A stretch of DNA of 30,076 nt from a virus. The number at the start of each line of letters is the position of its first letter. The first letter of the stretch is position 1. The notes under the pieces were generated by a model. That model saw only the letters and a list, made by a program, of their open reading frames with translations, searched no databases and was not told the origin of the DNA. The translations under genes were made by a program, and so were the position numbers. Location of the stretch: positions 1 through 30,076 of the IMG/VR virus record IMGVR_UViG_3300036944_000106. The stretch is one strand, 5' to 3'. Of this stretch, positions 7,647 through 30,076 are shown in pieces.

Positions 7647-8087
7647 TTATAAACCTAACCATGCAAGGACTTGCAAGGATGCCACAGCACTTGCTGTATC
7701 GACATACTCGTTACGGGGTTCCGTAAGAACAGTGTTCTGAAAGTCGTAAAGCTGTTTTTCAACCCCAACCGCAAAAGAACTCGCGTCTGGTTCGCTTTCG
7801 GTCGTCTGCGCCAGCGTCTCCAGCATAGCATCGTAGTTAGCCAACATCGACGCTGTGTCTGGCTGCGTCTCTGTCGTCTGCGCCAGCGTCTCCAGCATGG
7901 AATCGTAGGTCGCTAACAGCGACGCTGTGTCAGGCGCCAGCATAACTTCTTGTTGGTTGCTTTCCGTAGCGTTTAACAGCGACAGGAAGAACCGATACCA
8001 CTCACGGCTAATAGCGCCTGACCGCGGGTCGATAAACTCAACACGCGGCGGCGTTAACTGGGTGGGGTTGATCGGTGCCAGTGCCAT
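7647..8087 (-). CDS. Minor tail protein candidate in the P22 needle (gp26) position, with internal repeat
   Basis: A 146-residue protein. The N-terminal 40 residues (PPRVEFIDPRSGAISREWYR then FFLSLLNA) contain the REWYRFFLSL motif that I recognise from many small phage tail-region proteins of unknown role. Residues 52-99 are two tandem 24-residue repeats, PDTAS(L/M)LA(T/N)YD followed by (S/A)MLETLAQTTE, identical at 19 of 24 positions, then a third partial copy. The repeats are acidic and could form helices. The gene follows the gp10-like gene, the place of the P22 tail needle gp26, but no clear long heptad coiled coil is seen, so equivalence with the needle is only positional. Confidence 0.7.
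   Translation of the reverse strand: MALAPINPTQLTPPRVEFIDPRSGAISREWYRFFLSLLNATESNQQEVMLAPDTASLLATYDSMLETLAQTTETQPDTASMLANYDAMLETLAQTTESEPDASSFAVGVEKQLYDFQNTVLTEPRNEYVDTASAVASLQVLAWLGL
7791..7934 (-). repeat. Tandem 72-bp in-frame coding repeat
   Basis: Two direct copies of a 72-bp unit (7863-7934 and 7791-7862) encode 24-residue repeats identical at 19 of 24 residues. The next few codons (Pro-Asp-Ala-Ser-Ser) look like the start of a third copy. Copy number could vary by slippage or recombination. Confidence 0.8.
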
Positions 8088-13463: not shown

Positions 13464-14912
13464 TTACTTGCCGACCCAACCAGTGTTGCCGGTGCCGGAT
13501 TGTTTTACATATAAGGTTGTTGATGCGCCGCCATCAGAACGAAGGAACAGCGATCCTACTGGTGCAGTTACTACGCCTTCTGGTGTGCCAGTTCCAGAGC
13601 GCACCACAATAGTAGGTGCTGCGGTTCCGTCACCAAACACTAAACCGTTGCGGCTACCGCTAACGGCAGTAAAGGGTTCGGTCTGCGTGTCATTATACCA
13701 TGCTTGGTGGTAGAGTTGGTTAGACGCCTGATAAACGCGCTGCGTGTTGTAGATCACGCCAAAATTGTTTTGAAACAGGTTGTTTTCCAGACCTGTTTTG
13801 ACTCCAGCGCCATTGTCTACAAAACCAACACCTGTTGTGAGTGAACCCGCCACATTGTCTAAGCAGATAATTCCGCTGGCTTTATTCAGACTGAATGGAG
13901 CGGTTGATCCTGATATGCTTTTATATGAGTCAGCTTGCCCAAAAGCATTAGAAAGCTGAACTGTTCCAGAATTAACAATAAGGGCGCGGTTTACATTTCC
14001 CGCAGCACCGTTTCCAAAATGCCGCCATTGGTCGATTTTTAAAACAATAGCCGCACTTGGTGCGTTCATATAAACATGGGCTTCAACTGGGCCTTCTGTC
14101 CACAAGCCATAAAACGCATCAGGCACAATGCTGGTAGATACAGAGTAAACATTATACCCTACGTTATTACCTGAAGCCAAATAGTTGGACTCACAAACGG
14201 CTGAATAAAACACGTTTCCATTCGTTCCGACGCCCAGATACAATCCCGCCCCGTCGTTCTGCATCCCATGATATGAAAAAAACTGATTGGCGTTTGACGG
14301 TAGACCGTTTGACGTTGGAGTAGCCCAGCTAGTAATGCCTTCTTGAAGCACAAATCCGTGGCCAACATTGTAAATGCACTCAACATTTATAAATGTGTTA
14401 CCCAAACCTTGGAACATGACAATGCCGTTGTTACCGCATTTTGTCACAGTAACATTTTCCATAATGTTAAATGCCCAACGCAACAAACCAAAGCCCACTT
14501 GGTTGGTTAGCGTTCTGTCACCAATTAGGCTGAAATTACGAAACGCCATTCCACCCTTATCGTATGCGCCAACAGCAGGCACTGCATCGTCAATCCTAAT
14601 GATGTATGTAGACGCAGTCGATTTAATGATGGACGCATATTTCCCTGCGCCTTCAATAGACACGTTTTGTGGGACAGTTAATGTTGCGTTAGTTTTGTAT
14701 ACACCGGCAGGAAGAAAGACGGTTGTGCCGCCTTTTATGAAATAACCCGCACCACCAAATGAGGGATCGGCAATAGAAAGTGTTCCTGCATATGTCAAAG
14801 CAGCCTGAATAGCCGCCGTGCTATCCGCAACACCCGTAGGGTCAGCGCCATAATCCAGCACGTTCACTACTGCGCCGTTGATTAATGAATATGTTGCTTT
14901 GGTCAGGGTCAT
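13464..14912 (-). CDS. Tailspike-like protein, pectate-lyase-type beta-helix
   Basis: A 482-residue protein. Residues 15-40 carry VNVLDYGADPTGVADSTAAI, the signature that opens right-handed beta-helix (pectate lyase 3 superfamily) tailspikes. FLPAGVYKTNATLTVPQNVS and IEGAGKYASIIKS follow as the first rungs, and beta-helix-like repeats continue to about residue 350. The end (TTLYVKQSGTGNTGWVGK) is typical of phage fibre C-termini. The N-terminus before the helix is only about 15 residues, so it has no large head-binding domain and may attach through the neighbouring 720-residue spike. It likely binds or cleaves surface polysaccharide; catalytic residues are not evident. The gene is more AT-rich than the flanking scaffold gene. 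Confidence 0.85.
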   Translation of the reverse strand: MTLTKATYSLINGAVVNVLDYGADPTGVADSTAAIQAALTYAGTLSIADPSFGGAGYFIKGGTTVFLPAGVYKTNATLTVPQNVSIEGAGKYASIIKSTASTYIIRIDDAVPAVGAYDKGGMAFRNFSLIGDRTLTNQVGFGLLRWAFNIMENVTVTKCGNNGIVMFQGLGNTFINVECIYNVGHGFVLQEGITSWATPTSNGLPSNANQFFSYHGMQNDGAGLYLGVGTNGNVFYSAVCESNYLASGNNVGYNVYSVSTSIVPDAFYGLWTEGPVEAHVYMNAPSAAIVLKIDQWRHFGNGAAGNVNRALIVNSGTVQLSNAFGQADSYKSISGSTAPFSLNKASGIICLDNVAGSLTTGVGFVDNGAGVKTGLENNLFQNNFGVIYNTQRVYQASNQLYHQAWYNDTQTEPFTAVSGSRNGLVFGDGTAAPTIVVRSGTGTPEGVVTAPVGSLFLRSDGGASTTLYVKQSGTGNTGWVGK

Positions 14913-14969
14913 GTCAAAATCCTAAAAGTTGTGATTTTAGCATCAAGCAGTGCAGCGGCGAAATCATGG

Positions 14970-17132
14970 TCAAGTCCAGCTAAATGCGGATACAGGAATG
15001 CGTCGTTCTATGCCGACATAGTTGATTTGCATAGCTTGTGCGTTTAATGTGGTGCAGTTTATTCGCAATACTGGGTTGCTGGCTCTCAGCACGGTCCCTT
15101 GCACAATATATTCGCCAGTTTGGTATGTAGTAAGCGCCCCATCAAACTCTGCACTACCGTGTAGAACTTGGAATGTTGTGGCGCGTACAGCCATCAGCAT
15201 GGTTGCCTTGAACGTGCGTGCATTGCTGTTCAAGGTAGTGGTAGCGATTTGCGCCCACGATACGGTGTTTGTCCCATCGTAAAGTTGGAAAGCCAAATTA
15301 AAATTAGCTACCCCGCCAGTGATCTGACCCGTGACGGTAATTTCATACACTTCATTTTCAGTATCAAAATCAAATCCAAAAGCGGCTTTAGTGAAGGTGT
15401 AAAGCGTTTTTGTGGTTGGGACTGCCGCAGCCAAAATGTTTTGATCGTTTTTATAGTTTTGGCTTCGTATTGACACCGCATTTTGCGGAAAAATGTATGG
15501 TTTAGTGTATTGAACTGCATTGTTAAAATACCGCTCTAATTCACCTTCTATGGTCACATTGTCTGGAACAGCAATTCTAACCACATAATATGGCGTGGTC
15601 GCATAAGGTAATGTTGTTCCCGTAGTGCAACTGCAATTTATGATTTGTGTGTCACGAACACCGCCGGAATTTACAATTCTAATATCACGCCCTGTGAAAT
15701 TACTAACCTGATTGTTTACTGTGTTAATTTCGCAACTGATTAATTCAGCCTCAATGGAGCTAAATACAGTAGCCTGTGGTTCGCAATAAAAATTGCTAAT
15801 TACAGATTCTTTGATAAATTGATTTGACCCACCAATACCGATTGCGGCTCGGCCCACGCAGAAATTACGCACAATTCTTGAATTATTGAGCGCAGTCGTA
15901 GCAGTAGTTCCGTTTAGTTTTAGAAACTGCCCAGTGCCAAGATGAGCGCAATCCTTAACGTCAAAGTTGTCAAACTGACCGTAAGTGACTGAACCTTTAA
16001 GCTCAACAAAATGTCCGATGTTCGGGCCGCCAGAGCAGTTACGGATGGTTACGCCGCCGAGATTAGACGCCGTGCCATTTTCGAAAAAGAACAGGGCATT
16101 AGACACCGCAAAGTTTGTGGTTGTAATGCGCTCAAATAACATATTCTCAAAGAAATTTTCCGCATTTGGAAAATCAATGAAATTGCGAGTTACCGTTCCT
16201 TCAAAAGTAAATCCTTCGACAAACAAAAAGAAGCTGTCTGACGGGAACACGCCAACACATGAGAATATGAAGCCAGCAGTTTGCCCAACTCCATCACAAT
16301 CAATGACAGCGCCGTATCCATAAAGATGTCGATCACGACGCGTTAGGCCAGCTTGCGAGTCCGTGACAATGTTAATTGGTGCAGTGATGCGATATGTGCC
16401 TTCAGGAAAACAAAGTGTCCCATAAGGTGTTGCATCAATCGCATCTTGAATGGCAGCCGTATCGTCCGCCACGCCATCGCCAACAGCGCCGAAGTCCTTA
16501 ACCGAAACATATTGAGCCAACTTGTCTTCGACGTTGGTAGCAACGCCGCCTGTAAACGGCGGGTTATATGTTACAATCGATGCATCCACAGCGCCGGTAG
16601 TTGTTTGGACGGCTGTGGTAAACTTCACTTCGCCGCCGACGTGTACGCCAGCAGTAAACGTTACGGTGTTGCTGTCCGTTTCCAGATAGCTGTCACCGAC
16701 ATACTGGTTTACGCCATCTATGTAGACGGTCAGCGAGTTGGTGCCGGGCGTGTAGTTGATCGTCGAAAGGTTAAACACAGTCTGGCCGGCAGTCGCCGTG
16801 ATGACTTCCTCTTGGACCGTGTAGTTGATAAAGTTTGAGTTGACGCCCGTGATGTTGTCGTAGGTGCCAAGCAAGATGCCTGTTGATGTCTCAATGACAA
16901 ACTTGTAAACCAGACCGTCAGTCAGCCAAATCTCGCCGCCCGGTACGCGTCCTGCGCTGTCCAATATGATAGGGTTGGCATGAGGTGTAGTGCCAGCCGC
17001 GCTGGTGTATGTTGCTTGCGGCGTAGTTGTGCCGGCGGCGTAAGTGTAAATCTTACCACCTGTCAGAATGACGCCGTTGTTGTCAAAAAACTGAGCCGCG
17101 AACCCGCCAATCGGGGAAGGAGTTACTGACAT
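14970..17132 (-). CDS. Tailspike with N-terminal attachment domain and beta-helix
   Basis: A 720-residue protein with modular build. Residues about 1-95 (GGKIYTYAAGTTTPQATYTS ... PIILDSAGRVPGGEIWLTDG ... YKFVIETSTGILLGTYDNI) resemble in layout the head-binding domain of P22-type tailspikes. Residues about 105-175 (VFNLSTINYTPGTNSLTVYI, DGVNQYVGDSY) form a second small beta domain of the kind found in fibre stems. VKDFGAVGDGVADDTAAIQ at 211-229 opens a right-handed beta-helix that runs to about residue 540, and a C-terminal beta-sandwich-like receptor domain ends at 720. It probably is the main receptor-binding, glycan-degrading spike. AAAGG precedes the ATG. The coding region is clearly AT-richer than the portal and coat genes, which suggests module exchange. 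Confidence 0.9.
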   Translation of the reverse strand: MSVTPSPIGGFAAQFFDNNGVILTGGKIYTYAAGTTTPQATYTSAAGTTPHANPIILDSAGRVPGGEIWLTDGLVYKFVIETSTGILLGTYDNITGVNSNFINYTVQEEVITATAGQTVFNLSTINYTPGTNSLTVYIDGVNQYVGDSYLETDSNTVTFTAGVHVGGEVKFTTAVQTTTGAVDASIVTYNPPFTGGVATNVEDKLAQYVSVKDFGAVGDGVADDTAAIQDAIDATPYGTLCFPEGTYRITAPINIVTDSQAGLTRRDRHLYGYGAVIDCDGVGQTAGFIFSCVGVFPSDSFFLFVEGFTFEGTVTRNFIDFPNAENFFENMLFERITTTNFAVSNALFFFENGTASNLGGVTIRNCSGGPNIGHFVELKGSVTYGQFDNFDVKDCAHLGTGQFLKLNGTTATTALNNSRIVRNFCVGRAAIGIGGSNQFIKESVISNFYCEPQATVFSSIEAELISCEINTVNNQVSNFTGRDIRIVNSGGVRDTQIINCSCTTGTTLPYATTPYYVVRIAVPDNVTIEGELERYFNNAVQYTKPYIFPQNAVSIRSQNYKNDQNILAAAVPTTKTLYTFTKAAFGFDFDTENEVYEITVTGQITGGVANFNLAFQLYDGTNTVSWAQIATTTLNSNARTFKATMLMAVRATTFQVLHGSAEFDGALTTYQTGEYIVQGTVLRASNPVLRINCTTLNAQAMQINYVGIERRIPVSAFSWT

Positions 17133-21798: not shown

Positions 21799-23334
21799 TC
21801 AAGAACCCATCCAAGATGTAGAATATCCGGCAGGAGAATACGCGCTTGTGCGGCGCTTGTCAACGCGTCCTAGACGCGGATCTCTAGAAGCTACAGGAAA
21901 TGCAAACGTCACCGCTATGGCGTCCGCTGCGTCAGGTGACGCCAGCCCGCGTGACTTCATGTCCTTCTTGCTTTCGAGGAACAGCGTCCCCTTGCTGTCC
22001 GGCTTAGTGCGCGGACTGATGAGGTCTGTTTTCAGGAACCTATCGCTGGGGATGTGCGCTGTCTTGAGCCAGTCGCGCATGGCGCCCCACATCTCTGCGC
22101 GCTTGTTGCCCCACATGATCTGGTTCTTGGCCTTATTGCCGAAGTTGACGCCGCGTATCTTGTACCGCTGTTCCTTCAGCCGGTCCACGACGCCTGCGCC
22201 TAGCCCGCCTTCGTCGATGCAGACCAGCGCAGGCTTGAACTGCTCTATGGCGTCGATGACGTACCCAGCCACTTCCATCGTGTCTGCCCCGCGGTGTCTC
22301 CGCAACTCTAGGATGTCACGGCCCTGCCGTATGGCGATGACGGTAGCGTCCGCCCCAAAGCGTGCAGGGTCTACCCCTATGACGATGGGCGCACTGTCGT
22401 CCTTGGCTGGCGTGCGCTTCATGGCGTCGTCTACCAGATTGCTGCCGATAAACTGGTCGTCACCTTCAGACGGGAAGTTACCGTAGACTTCGACACTGGC
22501 TTGGTAGCTGTCTGGCCCGTACTCGTCGATGATGCGTTGGTACAGGTTCTTGTCTGTACCCTCGACATCGCGGGCGTCGATGACGCGGGTATTCCAGAAC
22601 GCCCGCTTGCTGTGGAACGTCTCGTAGAAATAGCCAGTGTTGCGCCGCGGGTTGGAAAAGGCCAGATGGAAGCGGTGCGGCGTGTTCTCTGTGAAGAAAC
22701 CATCACTGACCGACCATATGCTGTCAGGTATACCGCTGGCTTCGTCGAAGATCAGCATCACACCGTCGAAGTTGTGAACCCCTGCGTACGCGTCAGGGTT
22801 TTCTTCGGACCACAGCCGGCCTTCGACTGACCAGTAGCGCGTGCCTTTCTTCAGGTCGCGCTCGACCAATTCCGTCAGCCACTTGGCTGGCATGATGCGT
22901 GTGGCAGCTATCTCGAACCAGTGACTGTTCAACGACATTGCCAGCCACTTGGTAATTTCCGCCCATGTTACCGACCGCAACTGCGCTTCAGAGTTAGCCG
23001 ACACGATGGTCGTCGAGCCGATCCTTGATGATAGCATCCAGATGACTAGCCATGAGACCAGTGCCGACTTACCGATACCGCGTCCAGAGGCTATCGCCAG
23101 CCGTGCCGTGTCGAAGTCAACCTTGCCGTTGTTCGCTTTGATGTGGTCACGCAGGTCGGCGAGTATCTGGCGCTGCCATTTACGCGGGCCGGGGAAATGT
23201 TCCAGCGGTGTACCCTGCTGCCCCCACGGGAATGTGTACAGGACAAACGCTAGTGGGTCATCTTTTAGCGTGGGCGACCACAGCCGCGCCATCAACTCCA
23301 TCTCGTCTTGCGCTGAATATATCGGCTGCTGCAT
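21799..23334 (-). CDS. terL: Terminase large subunit
   Basis: A 511-residue packaging motor. The ATPase has Walker A G84-R-G-I-G-K-S90 and Walker B VMLIFDE at 192-198 (D197, catalytic E198). The C-terminal nuclease has the RNase H-like pattern: IGVDPARFGADATVIAI with D322, VCIDEGG with D374, and SPDAADAIA with D468/D471. It cuts concatemeric DNA and pumps it into procapsids. An N-terminal PWGQQGTPLEHFPGPRKWQR segment is typical of a subfamily I associate with alphaproteobacterial phages. The start at 23334 is backed by GAGG 9 nt upstream and overlaps the small subunit gene by 77 nt. Confidence 0.96.
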   Translation of the reverse strand: MQQPIYSAQDEMELMARLWSPTLKDDPLAFVLYTFPWGQQGTPLEHFPGPRKWQRQILADLRDHIKANNGKVDFDTARLAIASGRGIGKSALVSWLVIWMLSSRIGSTTIVSANSEAQLRSVTWAEITKWLAMSLNSHWFEIAATRIMPAKWLTELVERDLKKGTRYWSVEGRLWSEENPDAYAGVHNFDGVMLIFDEASGIPDSIWSVSDGFFTENTPHRFHLAFSNPRRNTGYFYETFHSKRAFWNTRVIDARDVEGTDKNLYQRIIDEYGPDSYQASVEVYGNFPSEGDDQFIGSNLVDDAMKRTPAKDDSAPIVIGVDPARFGADATVIAIRQGRDILELRRHRGADTMEVAGYVIDAIEQFKPALVCIDEGGLGAGVVDRLKEQRYKIRGVNFGNKAKNQIMWGNKRAEMWGAMRDWLKTAHIPSDRFLKTDLISPRTKPDSKGTLFLESKKDMKSRGLASPDAADAIAVTFAFPVASRDPRLGRVDKRRTSAYSPAGYSTSWMGS

Positions 23335-23758
23335 GTGTGTTATCCTCTAGGCGGGGTGTGACGTCAGTGTACAGCCCTTCGATGACGCGCGACTGTGCTT
23401 TTTCCAGCGCGCCTGTAATGCTTATCTGTTGGTCGATGTTTACGTCAATCTGCTGCTTGGCTACCCAGCCGTGCTGATGCTTGAGTATCTCCAGCGCAGC
23501 CTTGCTGTCGCCATCGCGTGCCGCTTCGTACATGGTTTTAGCCGCGGTGTACTCGCCGTCGCTGCGGCCCTTGATCTCAGCCATCTCCACTAGCGGGTCA
23601 GCGTCGGCCAGCACACGAAACTGCCGCGGGGTCAATCCTGCGGCCATTGCAAGGCTGTCACCTTTAAGCCCGTACTTGGCAGCCTCATAGATAGACTCCA
23701 GCCGCGCCTCGGTGGCCTGCGTCCGCTCTGGTGTAAATGGCAGTGAGTAGAAGGTCAT
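23258..23758 (-). CDS. terS: Terminase small subunit candidate
   Basis: A 166-residue protein directly before terL, overlapping it by 77 nt. Residues about 18-60 (RLESIYEAAKYGLKGDSLAM then AAGLTPRQFRVLADADP) form a helix-turn-helix-like unit; a helical oligomerisation region follows (EYTAAKTMYEAARDGDSKAA then LEILKHQHGWVAKQQ), with the ALEILKHQHGW segment being a frequent TerS feature. The C-terminal 50 residues are polar. It would recognise the packaging site and hand DNA to TerL. It is the first gene of the leftward operon. The upstream sequence lacks a clear ribosome site, so the start could differ slightly. Confidence 0.85.
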   Translation of the reverse strand: MTFYSLPFTPERTQATEARLESIYEAAKYGLKGDSLAMAAGLTPRQFRVLADADPLVEMAEIKGRSDGEYTAAKTMYEAARDGDSKAALEILKHQHGWVAKQQIDVNIDQQISITGALEKAQSRVIEGLYTDVTPRLEDNTHAAADIFSARRDGVDGAAVVAHAKR

Positions 23759-23783
23759 TGGGCGTACAATAATCTACCGGGTG

Positions 23784-23833
23784 CAGATATGCAACAGGCT
23801 TTGGTGCACCAACATTTTAAAAAAATAAAAATT
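23784..23833 (-). promoter_or_regulatory. Possible leftward promoter with A/T-rich upstream element
   Basis: Reading leftward, a 20-bp pure A/T tract (23814-23833) is followed by TTGGTG (23812-23807), a 17-bp spacer and TATCTG (23789-23784), about 25 nt before the terS ATG. Both hexamers are weak matches, so this is only a candidate. Confidence 0.3.
23801..23812. promoter_or_regulatory. Perfect 12-bp palindrome TTGGTGCACCAA
   Basis: The sequence equals its own reverse complement. It overlaps the -35 candidate of the leftward promoter and lies 43 bp from the terS start, so a dimeric regulator could bind here. Confidence 0.5.
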
Positions 23834-23872
23834 GCTCACGCTATGTGACCGTGTCAGTCACGCGGCGCTCGG

Positions 23873-23897
23873 CCCTGCCACCCCCACCCCCCTGCCC
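23873..23897 (-). other. G-quadruplex motif on the minus strand
   Basis: The minus strand has four G runs of 3, 6, 5 and 3 separated by 2, 1 and 5 nt, which satisfies the usual G3+N1-7 rule. It lies about 115 bp upstream of terS on the strand whose sequence matches the leftward transcript. Confidence 0.6.
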
Positions 23898-23948
23898 GAC
23901 GGTCGCCAGCTTTAAACGATCGCGCAGATTCTGCGTTGGCCTTTCACC

Positions 23949-23964
23949 TTGACGCTTACGTCAA
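23949..23964. promoter_or_regulatory. Inverted repeat TTGACG-CTTA-CGTCAA
   Basis: Perfect 6-bp arms with a 4-bp spacer, of operator type. No gene overlaps it. Confidence 0.45.
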
Positions 23965-24002
23965 CGTAAAGAAAACACAATCGGCTGGCTGGCTATGCTG
24001 CA

Positions 24003-24018
24003 ATGCAACATATTGCAT
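24003..24018. promoter_or_regulatory. Inverted repeat ATGCAA-CATA-TTGCAT
   Basis: Perfect 6-bp arms with a 4-bp spacer, 18 bp before the tandem repeats. Part of it (TGCAACATATT) recurs at 24410-24420. Confidence 0.45.
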
Positions 24019-24036
24019 ATGCCGGTTGTCAAGTTG

Positions 24037-24092
24037 TCACGGTGATCGCGTCACGGTGATCGCGTCACGGTGATCGCGTCACGGTGATCGCG
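24037..24092. repeat. Four perfect tandem 14-bp repeats (iteron-like)
   Basis: The unit TCACGGTGATCGCG occurs four times without a mismatch or spacer (starts 24037, 24051, 24065, 24079). Each unit contains the near-palindrome TCAC-G-GTGA and a GATC. Further TCAC/GTGA pairs lie at about 23835-23861. Iterons of this kind bind replication initiators or repressors. No initiator gene is identified in the window. Confidence 0.85.
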
Positions 24093-24108
24093 TGGCCGAT
24101 TAGGGGAA

Positions 24109-24121
24109 ACCCTCAAACTGT
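24109..24121. repeat. 13-bp direct repeat, copy 1 (second copy at 24436-24448)
   Basis: ACCCTCAAACTGT occurs at 24109-24121 and again at 24436-24448, once after the iterons and once in the leader of the first early gene. It may be a shared regulator site. Confidence 0.6.
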
Positions 24122-24189
24122 ATTAGTCGCGCAGGTAGGTCAAATTGTCATAGTTGCCATGACTTTTCAGTCGCCGCGAATATTTACAC

Positions 24190-24205
24190 AGGTATCTATA
24201 TACCT
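24190..24205. promoter_or_regulatory. Inverted repeat AGGTAT-CTAT-ATACCT
   Basis: Perfect 6-bp arms and a 4-bp spacer, followed on the plus strand by CTTTTTCT. It may be an operator or, less likely because of its short stem, a weak rightward terminator. Confidence 0.4.
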
Positions 24206-24324
24206 CTTTTTCTAAAACTTGAGTTTATATCTTTTCAATAACAATTAAACGTCCAATCCCCTTGTCACCCGCGCATTCGAGCCATTTCGCCGGTTGTCAT
24301 TCCCGCTATTTTCGTGACTACCTT

Positions 24325-24352
24325 TTGACAACTTTCACCCGATATTTATTAT
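24325..24352 (+). promoter_or_regulatory. Rightward early promoter, near-consensus sigma70 type
   Basis: A consensus -35 TTGACA (24325-24330) is followed after 16 bp by TATTAT (24347-24352), which matches five of six -10 positions. Transcription would start near 24359, about 128 nt before the first early gene. It is the best promoter visible in the window. Confidence 0.7.
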
Positions 24353-24371
24353 CGGCAAAATATGCCGATAA
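24349..24371. promoter_or_regulatory. Operator-like inverted repeat overlapping the early promoter
   Basis: Perfect 9-bp arms TTATCGGCA and TGCCGATAA flank a 5-bp AAATA spacer. The left arm overlaps the -10 hexamer and the right arm covers the expected start site, so a bound dimer would block transcription. The same sequence could form a hairpin at the extreme 5' end of the RNA. Confidence 0.6.
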
Positions 24372-24435
24372 ATCCCTAGCGTTTGCGCCTCACGTCGATT
24401 TATTTTGCGTGCAACATATTTTGTGGCTTGTAAGT

Positions 24436-24448
24436 ACCCTCAAACTGT
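24436..24448. repeat. 13-bp direct repeat, copy 2 (first copy at 24109-24121)
   Basis: Second copy of ACCCTCAAACTGT, 39 bp before the first early gene and inside its predicted leader. Confidence 0.6.
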
Positions 24449-24486
24449 GAGACTGTCACATCTCAATCAGTGAAGGAGCAAACGAC

Positions 24487-24825
24487 ATGCCTACATCTTG
24501 TTTACATCAATACGCCACTATTGGCGAAGCTCGCGTAGCGCGCAAACTAGTTAAGGCCGCGTTAGACCGTGACCTATCAGTAAGTGTTCACGACGGCGAA
24601 GAGTGGACGGTCACAAAAGCGTGGCGGCTCAAGACCGTGCTGGACGCAATGGCAACGACCGGCGAAGATACGCTGCGTATGTATGCACCGACCGGCGATT
24701 GTGTCGGTACGTTCTATCTTGTTTACGGCAACGAAGAGGACGGTAGTTGCTTGATCGCAGATCATACTGACAACGATATATGCCAGCGTATGTTTGAGGC
24801 CGCGCAACCGGTCGATGCCATATGA
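24487..24825 (+). CDS. Early hypothetical protein, first gene of the rightward operon
   Basis: A 112-residue protein with a strong ribosome site (AAGGAG, 8 nt before ATG). The first half is helical (GEARVARKLVKAALDRDLSV); the second half is acidic with strands (DTLRMYAPTGDCVGTFYLVY) and an acidic helix (DNDICQRMFEAAQP). No known family or motif is recognised. It is the first gene after the predicted early promoter and is probably made early and in quantity. The stop overlaps the next ATG (ATGA). Small acidic first early proteins in phages often act on host factors, but there is no direct evidence here. Confidence 0.8.
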   Translation: MPTSCLHQYATIGEARVARKLVKAALDRDLSVSVHDGEEWTVTKAWRLKTVLDAMATTGEDTLRMYAPTGDCVGTFYLVYGNEEDGSCLIADHTDNDICQRMFEAAQPVDAI

Positions 24826-26744: not shown

Positions 26745-26906
26745 ATGACACATTACGAATTCGCAATCGCGGGACTGTTAGCCGCGCAAGCCTTCACGCT
26801 CACCCTGCTATGGGAAACGCACAAGCTATACAGATGGTATAGCAACGTATGGGTGCGCGATACGAAAGAGCTGTTAGAGCTTAAACGGGAGCGCAACAAT
26901 GGATAG
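26745..26906 (+). CDS. Small single-span membrane protein
   Basis: A 53-residue protein read directly: MTHYEFAIAGLLAAQAFTLT then LLWETHKLYRWYSNVWVRDT and a charged tail KELLELKRERNNG. Residues about 6-23 form one membrane span, with a basic amphipathic C-terminus, so N-out/C-in topology is likely. It starts 3 nt after the preceding microprotein candidate and overlaps the next gene by 8 nt. Ribosome site weak. Function unknown. Confidence 0.65.
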   Translation: MTHYEFAIAGLLAAQAFTLTLLWETHKLYRWYSNVWVRDTKELLELKRERNNG

Positions 26907-27231
26907 GAACCTGCGCGCAAAGATACGGCACTTGGCCGGATACATCACCGACAAGTCGGCGGTTATGCAATACATCAACAGGGAGCAAAACCTGCGCCTA
27001 ACGCTGCGCGACATAGAGGACGCCTGCGCGGGGATTAGGGAATACAGACCGAACCTTAAGCCTATGATTCCGTCGCCGCTCATAGCGACGCACCAGACGC
27101 AAGGTTATGACGACCTAGCCCTTGCGCTGTTCCGATACCATGCCAAGCGCTCACACGGCCCTGAGCAAGCCTACTGGCTGGCAAGGCTGAACGACAGGCG
27201 CCCCAAGCCTACAACAAACGTACAACTGTAA
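26899..27231 (+). CDS. Small basic hypothetical protein
   Basis: A 110-residue basic protein with GGGAG before its ATG. Residues about 10-48 (HLAGYITDKSAVMQYINREQ then NLRLTLRDIEDACAGI) could be a helix-turn-helix-like unit; a second helical block contains YDDLALALFRYHAKRSHGPE. It might bind DNA, but no family is recognised. It sits in the middle of the early operon, 13 nt before the next gene. Confidence 0.75.
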   Translation: MDRNLRAKIRHLAGYITDKSAVMQYINREQNLRLTLRDIEDACAGIREYRPNLKPMIPSPLIATHQTQGYDDLALALFRYHAKRSHGPEQAYWLARLNDRRPKPTTNVQL

Positions 27232-27487: not shown

Positions 27488-27669
27488 GCCGCCCGATGAT
27501 ATACCCGATGGGAACGCTAGAAGTTGGTGAGGTGGCAACCATGCCAGCCACCAACAGGGGCGATGCAAAGCGCACTAGCCGCAACGTCTCGCAATATGGG
27601 ATCAGGAACGGGAAGGCGTTCAAGTGCCGCACTGTTGAGGGCGTCACATTCATTACGAGGTTAAGATAA
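27484..27669 (+). CDS. Small basic protein, possible nucleic-acid binder
   Basis: A 61-residue protein. The ATG at 27484 overlaps the previous stop; an alternative at 27460 lies inside the previous gene. MSRPMIYPMGTLEVGEVATM is followed by a basic part, AKRTSRNVSQYGIRNGKAFK, and a beta end GVTFITRLR. The RNVSQYGxRxGxxFxxR...GVxxxTR pattern occurs in small phage proteins that look like DNA or RNA binders. The function is not known. Its stop overlaps the next ATG (TAATG). Confidence 0.72.
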   Translation: MSRPMIYPMGTLEVGEVATMPATNRGDAKRTSRNVSQYGIRNGKAFKCRTVEGVTFITRLR

Positions 27670-27848
27670 TGACAGACCAAAACGGATATATGAAATTAAC
27701 TCGCACCCCTGCGGTGCGGTCACCTAGAGACCCGAACACTTTCACCAACCACCTTACCGCCGAAAGCGGCGGAATAGGTGAAAGGGTGACAGACGAAACC
27801 GCGACGCACTATTTGGTGCATCACTTTTGGATCGAAGAAAAGAAATGA
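27669..27848 (+). CDS. Small hypothetical protein
   Basis: A 59-residue protein read directly: MTDQNGYMKLTRTPAVRSPR then a polar middle and HYLVHHFWIEEKK at the end. It is rich in Thr, Asn and His. Both ends overlap neighbouring genes (TAATG and ATGA), which supports a real gene. No family is recognised. Confidence 0.6.
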   Translation: MTDQNGYMKLTRTPAVRSPRDPNTFTNHLTAESGGIGERVTDETATHYLVHHFWIEEKK

Positions 27849-28147
27849 CAGACGATAGCATTGAAGCAAAAGCCTTGGCGCTGGTGAATGAGGTGAGAGA
27901 GGAGCGAGATTTGCCATCAAAACTACAGATGTGTCGATTATCTCAAGCACAAGACGAAGCACTATGCCGCGCCCTTGAACAGCACGAAGCCTTTAAGCAA
28001 GACGTGAGCGATGTGCTCAAGATGGCGGGTGCCGCTATCCGTGGGCTTCTGGACATAGCACCAGAAGAAAATCTCGACAGCGAACAGGCTGGCCATGCGT
28101 ATGCGGCGCTTCATACAATCGACACAGCACTAAAGGAAACAACATGA
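27845..28147 (+). CDS. Small acidic helical protein
   Basis: A 100-residue protein. The ATG at 27845 (MTDDSIEAKALALVNEVREE) overlaps the previous stop and is preferred over one at 27827. It is helical and acidic (LSQAQDEALCRALEQHEAFK, QDVSDVLKMAGAAIRGLLDI). Many phage early regions encode proteins with this ALVNEVREERxL ... ALEQHEAFK pattern, but no function is known to me. The stop overlaps the next ATG. Confidence 0.78.
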   Translation: MTDDSIEAKALALVNEVREERDLPSKLQMCRLSQAQDEALCRALEQHEAFKQDVSDVLKMAGAAIRGLLDIAPEENLDSEQAGHAYAALHTIDTALKETT

Positions 28148-28200: not shown

Positions 28201-28265
28201 TACGGTGCGTCATCGACTGGATCATAGCCCGCTTGGCTGAAGGCGTTAAGGATTGCGACCAATAA
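28197..28265 (+). CDS. 22-residue microprotein candidate at operon end
   Basis: Reads MIRCVIDWIIARLAEGVKDC then DQ and TAA. AAGG precedes the ATG, which overlaps the previous stop. A short amphipathic hydrophobic helix with two cysteines. It ends 4 nt before the terminator stem, so it is the last frame of the rightward operon. Confidence 0.45.
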   Translation: MIRCVIDWIIARLAEGVKDCDQ

Positions 28266-28269
28266 TAAA

Positions 28270-28302
28270 AAACCCCCTGCGGAGTGAGGACGCAGGGGGT
28301 TT
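28270..28302 (-). terminator. Intrinsic terminator between convergent operons
   Basis: A 12-bp stem (AAACCCCCTGCG/CGCAGGGGGTTT) with a 9-nt loop. On the minus transcript it is followed by TTTTTTATTATT, a strong U-tract, so it should end the helicase transcript. On the plus transcript the tail is only TTTAAAAAGG, so it may end the early operon less efficiently. Confidence 0.88.
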
Positions 28303-28360
28303 AAAAAGGTCAGCGGAGCATTGCCAACCCTAACTGTATATCATCGACTGATATCGCCTG

Positions 28361-30067
28361 TCAATTCTTGCCTATTGACGGCATAAACCCAGACTTAGGC
28401 ACGTCCTCTGCCATGCGGCGCAACTCTGACTTGCTGTATTTCGGAAGCGTATCAGGCGCGACAAACAAGTGTTTCTTGTTTTGATGTTCCTTCGAATTGA
28501 CGCGGCCTAAGTCAACCCAGCCCGCTTCCTTCAGCGCATGTAGGAGCGCCGCCTGTGGTATCTTGACACCGGCAGGGACGTTGACCGCCAGCGCGTCACA
28601 AATGCGGTGGAAAGGCCCGCCAATGACGCCGTTGGCAAAGACAGACGCCTTCTCGCGCATCAAGTCCACAAGGTAGCTTTCGGCTACACTCATGCCATGC
28701 TCGACCATGTTTAGTTTCCATTCGGTAACCGGCGGCGCAGCGGCAGGGTTGAACGCCGAAACGTCACGCTGCCACAGCCACGCGGCGCACTTCTCATAGC
28801 CGCCGGCCTTATACCAGCCCCACAGCTTGTCCGCTGCGGCTGGCGACATACGCGGTGCACGCGTCCAGACGCAGAACCAGCGGCGGTCTTGTGTCGGCAG
28901 TGTGATAGGCAACGGATCGTTCGTGTATGCAATTACCATCAAGCGGTTAACCAACTCATACGGGTGCATCCCCTTACGGTTGACTGTCAGCGTTTCAGGT
29001 GGCGCAGCAATGAGCGGCTTTAGCTTGTTAGCCATCGCGCGGCGCTCTCGTGCCTCTGGCTCCTTTAATTCGTTCAGGATGACAACTTCAGCCTCAAGCG
29101 AATAGCCCCACTGGCTGTCCAAGCCGCCGGCCTCAATAACGGACCTGTTGCGCCAATGCTGACCGCCCAGCGCCCATAGGAACGGCTGGAACATACTGTC
29201 CTTACCGACGCCTTCGTCACCGCCGATCAGGATTGCATGGTTCATCTTGACGTTAGGGTGCTGTATCTTGAACGCCATAGCGTCAAGGATGTGGTCTAGT
29301 TCCTTATCGTCCGCAATCAGGTCGCGGCAATGCTCTAACCACGGCTCGACGTCATGGTCTGCGATTGCGTCGCTGTCGGACACGTCAGGGCGGGCGTCTG
29401 TCCAGCGGTTGCCGTAGACCAAGCCGTCACGCGTCACCAGCACATCATCGCCAGCGGCAAACGTCACAGCAGCCAGCGCAGGCGCGCCGCGGTCTTGCCG
29501 GCGCTCATCGAAATAGATGGACGACTGCACACGCTGCGTCTTCTTGTGGATGGAACGGCAATCAACGTGACGGAACAACGCGTTGAAGACGTTGCGGGCT
29601 ATCTCCTGACGCGTCACCATGTCAAAGTAGCAGTCATCAGATTGGATATATGCGAAACGCTCGAACCACTCGCTTTGTTCCAGCCGTCCCGCTTCTTTTT
29701 TCTCGACCTCACGCACACGCGCTGCGGCCTCGTCGGGGAATGCTTCAGTCGGCGCTATCTTCTCATACATCAGCGACAGACGTTCAGCGATTAGTTCGTC
29801 ACGCAAACCCGGCGTCACCTTCGGGCCGCCCTCATTAGCTACCCAATCAAGGAAGGTGCGGCTGTCTAGGTCTTGGCAATGCCCGTGATAGCAGCAGAAT
29901 GAACGATCCAGCGGCTTGTAGCGCGCCTCGATCATGCCGTCGCTGTGTTGCTCATGGTTAGGGCAGACGATGCCACACCAGCCGTCAGCGTTAGGGTGAC
30001 TAAGGACTAAATTGTTGTCCGCAAGCCATGTCAGGACGTTGTCAAGGCCAGTGTCGCGCAACTGCAC
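28361..30067 (-). CDS. Primase/helicase: zinc finger plus SF3/D5-like ATPase
   Basis: A 568-residue protein for replication. Residues about 31-64 form a CHC2-type zinc finger (C35-P-N-H38 and C58/C59 ... C64). Residues about 245-430 are a superfamily 3 (D5/DUF5906-like) helicase: Walker A GGDEGVGKDS at 282-291, Walker B VVILNE at 328-333, the LMVIAYTND sensor at 376-384, and DRRW (394-397) as arginine finger. A winged-helix-like C-terminus follows. It should unwind DNA, and prime it if the middle region is active; no clear primase active site is seen. The start is a GTG at 30067, but the frame stays open to the window edge, so the gene could begin upstream. Its 3' end is followed by a strong terminator. 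Confidence 0.92.
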   Translation of the reverse strand: MQLRDTGLDNVLTWLADNNLVLSHPNADGWCGIVCPNHEQHSDGMIEARYKPLDRSFCCYHGHCQDLDSRTFLDWVANEGGPKVTPGLRDELIAERLSLMYEKIAPTEAFPDEAAARVREVEKKEAGRLEQSEWFERFAYIQSDDCYFDMVTRQEIARNVFNALFRHVDCRSIHKKTQRVQSSIYFDERRQDRGAPALAAVTFAAGDDVLVTRDGLVYGNRWTDARPDVSDSDAIADHDVEPWLEHCRDLIADDKELDHILDAMAFKIQHPNVKMNHAILIGGDEGVGKDSMFQPFLWALGGQHWRNRSVIEAGGLDSQWGYSLEAEVVILNELKEPEARERRAMANKLKPLIAAPPETLTVNRKGMHPYELVNRLMVIAYTNDPLPITLPTQDRRWFCVWTRAPRMSPAAADKLWGWYKAGGYEKCAAWLWQRDVSAFNPAAAPPVTEWKLNMVEHGMSVAESYLVDLMREKASVFANGVIGGPFHRICDALAVNVPAGVKIPQAALLHALKEAGWVDLGRVNSKEHQNKKHLFVAPDTLPKYSKSELRRMAEDVPKSGFMPSIGKN

Positions 30068-30076
30068 CGCTTTATA

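Follow-up and report, generated by a model that had tools for sequence, protein, structure and literature searches.

The iterons of SaPI elements flank an AT-rich region. SaPI Rep and SCCmec Cch2 bind iterons via a C-terminal domain and may be self-loading helicases, and SaPI5 Rep is a primase–helicase fusion (PMC7581432). Work cited in PMC4234260 ascribes to P4 alpha a winged helix that acts at the repeats of its origin. In the PLE satellites of Vibrio cholerae, the RepA DNA-binding domain and the iterons have been swapped jointly, which is attributed to an origin-directed nuclease (PMC8263062), and in geminivirus Rep a short stretch of residues, the iteron-related domain, co-varies with the iteron (PMC10653810). 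Here we compare with these systems an intergenic gap (23759–24486) of an uncultured phage, which, judged from its sequence, is very probably the phage replication origin. Our main reading, to which we give a probability of roughly 0.7, is that this gap is the origin, that a primase–helicase is its initiator on GTTGTCA-type iterons, and that a conspicuous array of four 14-bp repeats is an accessory, lineage-specific expansion. A probable origin and a probable initiator can be named for an uncultured phage group.

The window (the whole stretch analysed, the 30,076-base virus record IMGVR_UViG_3300036944_000106) derives from an uncultured freshwater podovirus whose portal, coat and head-closure protein are all P22-type. 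A second record, 3300043036_000003, represents the same virus (99.99% identity across 24.25 kb). Similar DNA was not found among annotated phages, and the collections searched hold only two annotated relatives of the group, both distant. We compared the corresponding gaps of relatives at 80 loci retrieved via the terminase small subunit TerS (86–100% identical) and 160 via the helicase. Related helicases also occur in betaproteobacterial MAGs (L319, L322 (Rhodoferax MAG); L320 (beta-proteobacterium MAG)), a hint of Burkholderiales hosts or, alternatively, of co-binned phage contigs. Elsewhere in the window, the tail-spike genes (13464–17132) have a GC content of 0.43–0.51, below most of the window, which suggests exchange, and a tandem repeat (7801–7935; 72 bp, 1.9 copies, 88%) overlaps late-region coding sequence. 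A search of the window for RNA elements gave no Rfam match and no tRNA.

Table 1. Features of the putative origin gap and of the candidate initiator gene (window coordinates)
Feature	Position	Strand	Remarks
TerS (terminase small subunit)	23258–23758	−	Left border of the origin gap; no co-variation with repeats
Distal iteron pair GTTGTCAaGTTGTCA	24025–24031, 24033–24039	+	Second overlaps array start; same place in L038, L048, L076
14-mer array, 4 perfect copies TCACGGTGATCGCG (alternative unit reading GATCGCGTCACGGT)	24037–24092	+	GCGT-box array, putatively accessory, left origin arm
Proximal iterons ATTGTCA, GTTGCCA	24144–24150, 24153–24159	+	9 bp apart, immediately left of AT-rich core; layout conserved
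AT-rich core, candidate unwinding element	24179–24240		77% AT; includes GGTATCTATATACC; many relatives have AACCATATAGGTTATA
Right-arm iterons CTTGTCA (one mismatch), GTTGTCA	24261–24267, 24293–24299	+	
Inverted right-arm iterons GTAGTCA (one mismatch), GTTGTCA	24315–24321, 24326–24332	−	
Hairpin TTATCGGCAAAATATGCCGATAA	24349–24371		z −3.8; near the DnaA-box place of many relatives
First early gene	24487–24825	+	Right border of the gap; phrog_22565
Primase–helicase (DUF5906/VapE-like), candidate origin-binding initiator	28361–30076	−	N-terminus beyond window end
Helicase C-terminal 126 aa, predicted winged-helix topology	28364–28741	−	Candidate iteron-binding domain
Wing-tip residues NSKEHQNK	28475–28498	−	Type switches with iteron class

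An earlier note on this DNA had placed the array between two divergent operons, followed by AT-rich sequence from about 24180. Both observations stand: TerS runs leftward from 23758 and the early operon rightward from 24487, and positions 24179–24238 are 77% AT. Comparison of relatives places the true iterons, which at 7–9 bp are shorter than the 14-mers, on both sides of this core. Closer relatives keep a common layout: about 265 bp from the TerS start lie one or two iterons, just left of the core a tandem of two or three, 8–9 bp apart, and to its right two inverted iterons followed by further copies in both orientations. The iteron itself exists as alleles (TAGGCTA, TGGGTCA, GACGTCA, GTTGTCA, GTTTACA and GTGGACA), which we sorted into classes A (TAGGC[TG]A), B (TGGGTCA), C (GACGTCA), D (GTTG[TC]CA) and E (TAGGTCA), with F (GTTTACA) and W (GTGGACA) for more distant relatives; these classes were set post hoc from the data, a freedom that the permutation and close-pair tests below remove incompletely. 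The window iterons are class D, some with one mismatch (Table 1).

Where the sequence of a relative is complete or long, its iteron motif clusters within this 1 kb: G018 has eight sites in its 1-kb gap versus one in the remaining 36 kb, and MW202483 has eleven GTTTACA sites clustered at 28,225–28,575, close to TerS. The window octamer GTTG[TC]CAT is only mildly concentrated, with three occurrences in the gap and five elsewhere. Perfect DnaA boxes are present in 34 of the 127 non-redundant gaps of relatives (0.86 expected); the window's own gap has none. MW202483 (L092) carries an annotated homing endonuclease gene (27644–28090) between TerS and the GTTTACA cluster, and one origin (L047) combines class A iterons in the left arm with largely class B in the right arm, a mixture that suggests recombination in the AT-rich core. 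An exact 13-nt direct repeat, ACCCTCAAACTGT, stands at 24109–24121 and 24436–24448 of the window; relatives repeatedly have TACCCTC/GAGGGTA words just in front of their first early gene, a candidate early-promoter operator; and minisatellites of 5–9 bp (up to 17 copies) lie beside the iteron region in L169, L215, L221 and L224.

GC skew, suggested by the earlier note as a check of the origin, does not turn at the gap in those relatives whose genomes are complete. Its turning points scatter, none falling consistently at the gap, and we rejected it as an origin marker here. Several genomes do have an AT-skew minimum near the gap, which follows the switch of coding strand.

The candidate initiator is encoded at the window's right end. 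Its helicase domain matches DUF5906 (37.8–38.7 bits, above the cut-off of 27.6), consistent with a D5/SF3-type helicase, with a VapE-like match below cut-off; the only PDB relative found by sequence is NrS-1 (6k9c/6k9e/6lrb, E 2.9e-7). The window copy is truncated, and in a full-length relative (G002) a fused primase is recognized as RepB_primase (25.6 bits, cut-off 24.3). AlphaFold gives the C-terminal domain an H-E-H-H-beta hairpin topology (pLDDT 79.5), and Foldseek returns mostly winged-helix proteins as weak matches (best E 0.057), from which the domain is predicted to be a winged helix. A scan of the window's early-side proteins against PHROGs and Pfam revealed no separate plasmid-family Rep initiator. 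According to the earlier note, the protein that recognizes the repeats is not visible in the window; for the 14-mers this still stands, and for the true iterons it is probably wrong, the C-terminal part of the helicase being the likely binder.

Alignment columns that predict the iteron class point to the same domain. The best all fall in residues 286–306 of the helicase's C-terminal segment (adjusted NMI 0.64 maximum), a variable segment that follows ...LLHALKEAGW.D.G and sits in the predicted hairpin loop between strands 76–81 and 90–94. The best class-associated column of any other family reaches 0.31 in this test, which covered the protein families with enough members (three small families were left out). 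That column belongs to the early protein c8 (26899–27231), rejected as an iteron binder on this comparison; for the GCGT boxes described below c8 is a vague candidate, with a poor model (pTM 0.39). TerS scores 0.21 at best. This value bears on the idea that the repeats are a packaging (pac) site for the neighbouring TerS: the array does lie about 280 bp upstream of the gene, but TerS proteins stay 96–99% identical beside quite different repeats. We rejected TerS as the repeat binder for this reason, and a pac site is an extremely improbable explanation.

The wing residues usually follow the iteron class: N-S-K marks classes C and D and G-S-x classes A and E, [AH]-S-x is found mostly in B, and distant relatives have K-S-R (class W) or GMCAAEELPTKRH (class F). 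Tallied over 110 non-redundant combinations, N-type wings go with class C or D in 18 cases and A in 1 (2 without a class), G-type with A in 38 and E in 2 (2 without), and A/H-type with B in 18, A in 5 and E in 1 (4 without). Wing and iteron agree in 56 of 59 phages (tree tips), against a random mean of 18.7 and maximum of 30. On a tree built from the helicase core, without the wing-bearing C-terminal segment, we count about 16 switches of iteron class and about 17 of the wing, but only 19 of their joint state. Among pairs with cores at least 93% identical, which are mutually non-independent, different wing groups are seen in 131 of 140 pairs that differ in class and in 12 of 145 pairs that share one. 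One pair (L213 and L218) has identical cores, with both wings and iterons different. The helicase of L006/G025 comes near to a natural swap: identity to the window's protein is about 99% up to roughly the final 100 aa and falls to 76% over the last 80 aa, and the accompanying iterons are TGGGTCA.

We propose from these alignments that wing and iterons have been swapped together between relatives and that the wing tip reads the iteron. Exceptions are L281, the ACV/ASF wings and two cases in which a K wing accompanies class B. The clearest mismatch, L281, pairs an N-type wing with class A iterons, its helicase lying at a contig edge; over 7.1 kb it otherwise shares 97.7% identity with L305, whose G-type wing fits the pattern, and it is either a chimera or a true recombinant. 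The roughly 16 specificity switches with matched sites, often on near-identical helicase backbones, amount to a natural experiment, and the origin-reading residues are thereby testable through swaps of a few amino acids.

The four perfect 14-bp copies reported earlier are real and far above chance. TCACGGTGATCGCG is repeated head to tail at 24037–24050, 24051–24064, 24065–24078 and 24079–24092, with no further copy in the window; 14-bp periodicity is perfect over 24036–24093 (TRF score 116), and the longest exact lag match at periods 8–40 is 44 bases, compared with 8–11 in ten Markov shuffles. The same four copies are present in 3300043036_000003, so that an assembly accident is improbable; both records nevertheless represent one lineage. 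In a pattern scan of the viral collection for two adjacent units, this record was the sole match beyond the window, and the array is absent from every other gap examined among relatives, nearly all of which carry other repeats. It is missing from relatives whose gene order around the gap is unchanged. The earlier note had named loss of the repeats with gene order intact, together with no skew change, as evidence against its reading, and both are what we find for the 14-mers. Its proposal of an origin survives as a location, through the flanking iterons, the DnaA boxes of relatives and the co-switching of iteron and wing; the 14-mers as the defining iterons of that origin do not. Folding of the array is moderately better than that of shuffles (z −2.5 and −1.7), values on which we rejected a hairpin or cruciform reading.

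The array occupies the left-arm spacer, between the distal and proximal iteron pairs, and its first unit starts within the iteron at 24033–24039. This position, with GTCAC kept by each unit, would suit 14-mers that are themselves iterons of the initiator: each unit junction, CGCGTCAC, has the GTCA half in common with GACGTCA/GTTGTCA sites, which would add three or four sites at 14-bp spacing, and N-type wings pair with GACGTCA as well as GTTGTCA iterons. Against this, one relative (L005/G002) has a helicase whose last 80 aa are identical to the window's, together with GTTG[TC]CA iterons, and lacks the 14-mers, which are thus not the initiator's essential sites. Spacer arrays with GCGT also accompany TAGGCTA and TGGGTCA iterons, their units ignoring iteron class, and we consider the 14-mers unlikely to be initiator iterons.

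The earlier note's alternative was a repressor array or master operator. A phage repressor or early regulator would then bind the 14-mers, through the palindromic core TCAC-N-GTGA, and control the divergent operons. Divergent genes and a palindromic core are indeed present, a sigma-70-like promoter (24325–24352) lies 230 bp from the array, and a DSL-LC05 gene is annotated 'repressor protein C'. Yet no repressor family was recognized among the window early proteins scanned, relatives without the array keep the gene order, and the array lies outside the sole promoter-like site, where an iteron rather than a 14-mer overlaps; the alternative is unsupported and we think it quite improbable. The extra TCAC/GTGA words noted near 23835–23861 exist, but they belong to a conserved TerS-adjoining block found in relatives without the array, and several such 4-mers are expected per 700 bp. 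As for the overlapping iteron, 24326–24332 (−) covers the −35 of the promoter-like site, and the early operon might conceivably be autoregulated; one such site is expected by chance in our search.

Other relatives fill the same spacer with units of 12–15 bp that contain GCGT and share one orientation: CGATTGCGTGAT (L060, L066), AGTTTGCGTGGCC (L065), TTGCGTGGTCAGT (L262, L268), TGCGTGGTCATGAC (L017 and many others) and GATTGCGTG-type units (L316). Single boxes close to the window unit are CCGATCGCGTGGCC (L036) and CCGATCGCGTGAC (L060). Of 63 non-redundant gaps, 14 have a chain of two or more boxes 11–16 bp apart on the + strand and 2 have one on the − strand, compared with 3.3 in shuffles; chains of four are confined to the window and L060. 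Neutral slippage could also have produced the window array, as a recent, functionless minisatellite in a length-tolerant spacer. The units are identical and found in one virus only, spacer length is highly variable in relatives, and others carry 5–9-bp minisatellites there; the one-orientation GCGT core that independent arrays share above chance argues the other way, and we regard slippage as possible but not probable.

The recurrence of GCGT arrays in this spacer makes a lineage-specific expansion the best reading of the window array: by sequence, the 14-mers look as if a GATCGCGTG box of the left-arm spacer had been multiplied in tandem, and are a lineage-specific extra array rather than origin-defining iterons. 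Any role for them we infer; most likely they are a candidate accessory binding array or a spacer. The most conspicuous repeat of an origin need not be its functional iteron.

Sequence comparison itself establishes the array and the conserved layout, the joint switching of iteron and wing, the DnaA boxes and the recurring GCGT arrays. SaPI Rep, SCCmec Cch2 and P4 alpha are the models for our mechanism, and by analogy with them we infer binding, melting and self-loading by the helicase at the gap: the C-terminal winged-helix domain of the primase–helicase would bind GTTGTCA-type iterons on both arms of the core, the bound protein would melt the AT-rich core, and it would then load itself as replicative helicase–primase and start synthesis. 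A more speculative extension, which we hold to be rather doubtful, treats wing tip and iterons as a recognition code of at least six alleles, exchanged as a unit within a large group of uncultured freshwater podoviruses, with possible diversifying pressure and replication-based incompatibility groups, and with the GCGT arrays binding a second, class-independent factor. Any such pressure would possibly come from origin-targeting rivals (nucleases, satellites or superinfecting relatives), and the PLE case would make an origin-directed nuclease one conceivable cause of the joint swapping proposed here.

Iterons around an AT-rich core, as in replicons of the SaPI, Cch2 and P4 alpha type, are found in this gap, and the locus shares with SaPI Rep–ori and Cch2 a helicase with a C-terminal candidate DNA-binding domain and an iteron origin, and with SaPI5 Rep a primase fusion. 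Unlike these, the putative initiator is that of a podovirus; the origin adjoins TerS and is not directly downstream of the rep gene, the helicase stop codon lying about 3.9–4 kb past the gap end in the window; and there are 7–9-bp iterons with many alleles among close relatives, plus extra GCGT arrays. P4 alpha likewise unites primase, helicase and winged-helix origin binding in one protein (as cited in PMC4234260; binding is predicted here), but its primase is Toprim, whereas our N-terminus matches RepB_primase and our helicase DUF5906, the C-terminal domains being likened by predicted fold. The NrS-1 primase-polymerase shares the DUF5906 helicase type (PMC9611036); a search of PMC7102993 turned up neither a winged domain for origin binding nor a set of iterons for it. 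PLE RepA–ori resembles our system in the joint exchange of initiator DNA-binding domain and iterons among relatives, and differs in a RepA_N initiator without helicase, an N-terminal binding domain and far fewer alleles. Geminivirus Rep also has a short stretch co-varying with the iteron, but it is an HUH-type rolling-circle protein from ssDNA viruses of plants, with an unrelated fold. The combination of DnaA box, AT-rich DUE and iterons that marks a RepA-type iteron plasmid origin occurs in the 34 of 127 relatives; the window gap has no perfect DnaA box. By analogy, we propose that this origin system works like the SaPI/P4 Rep–ori replicons, as a variant of them.
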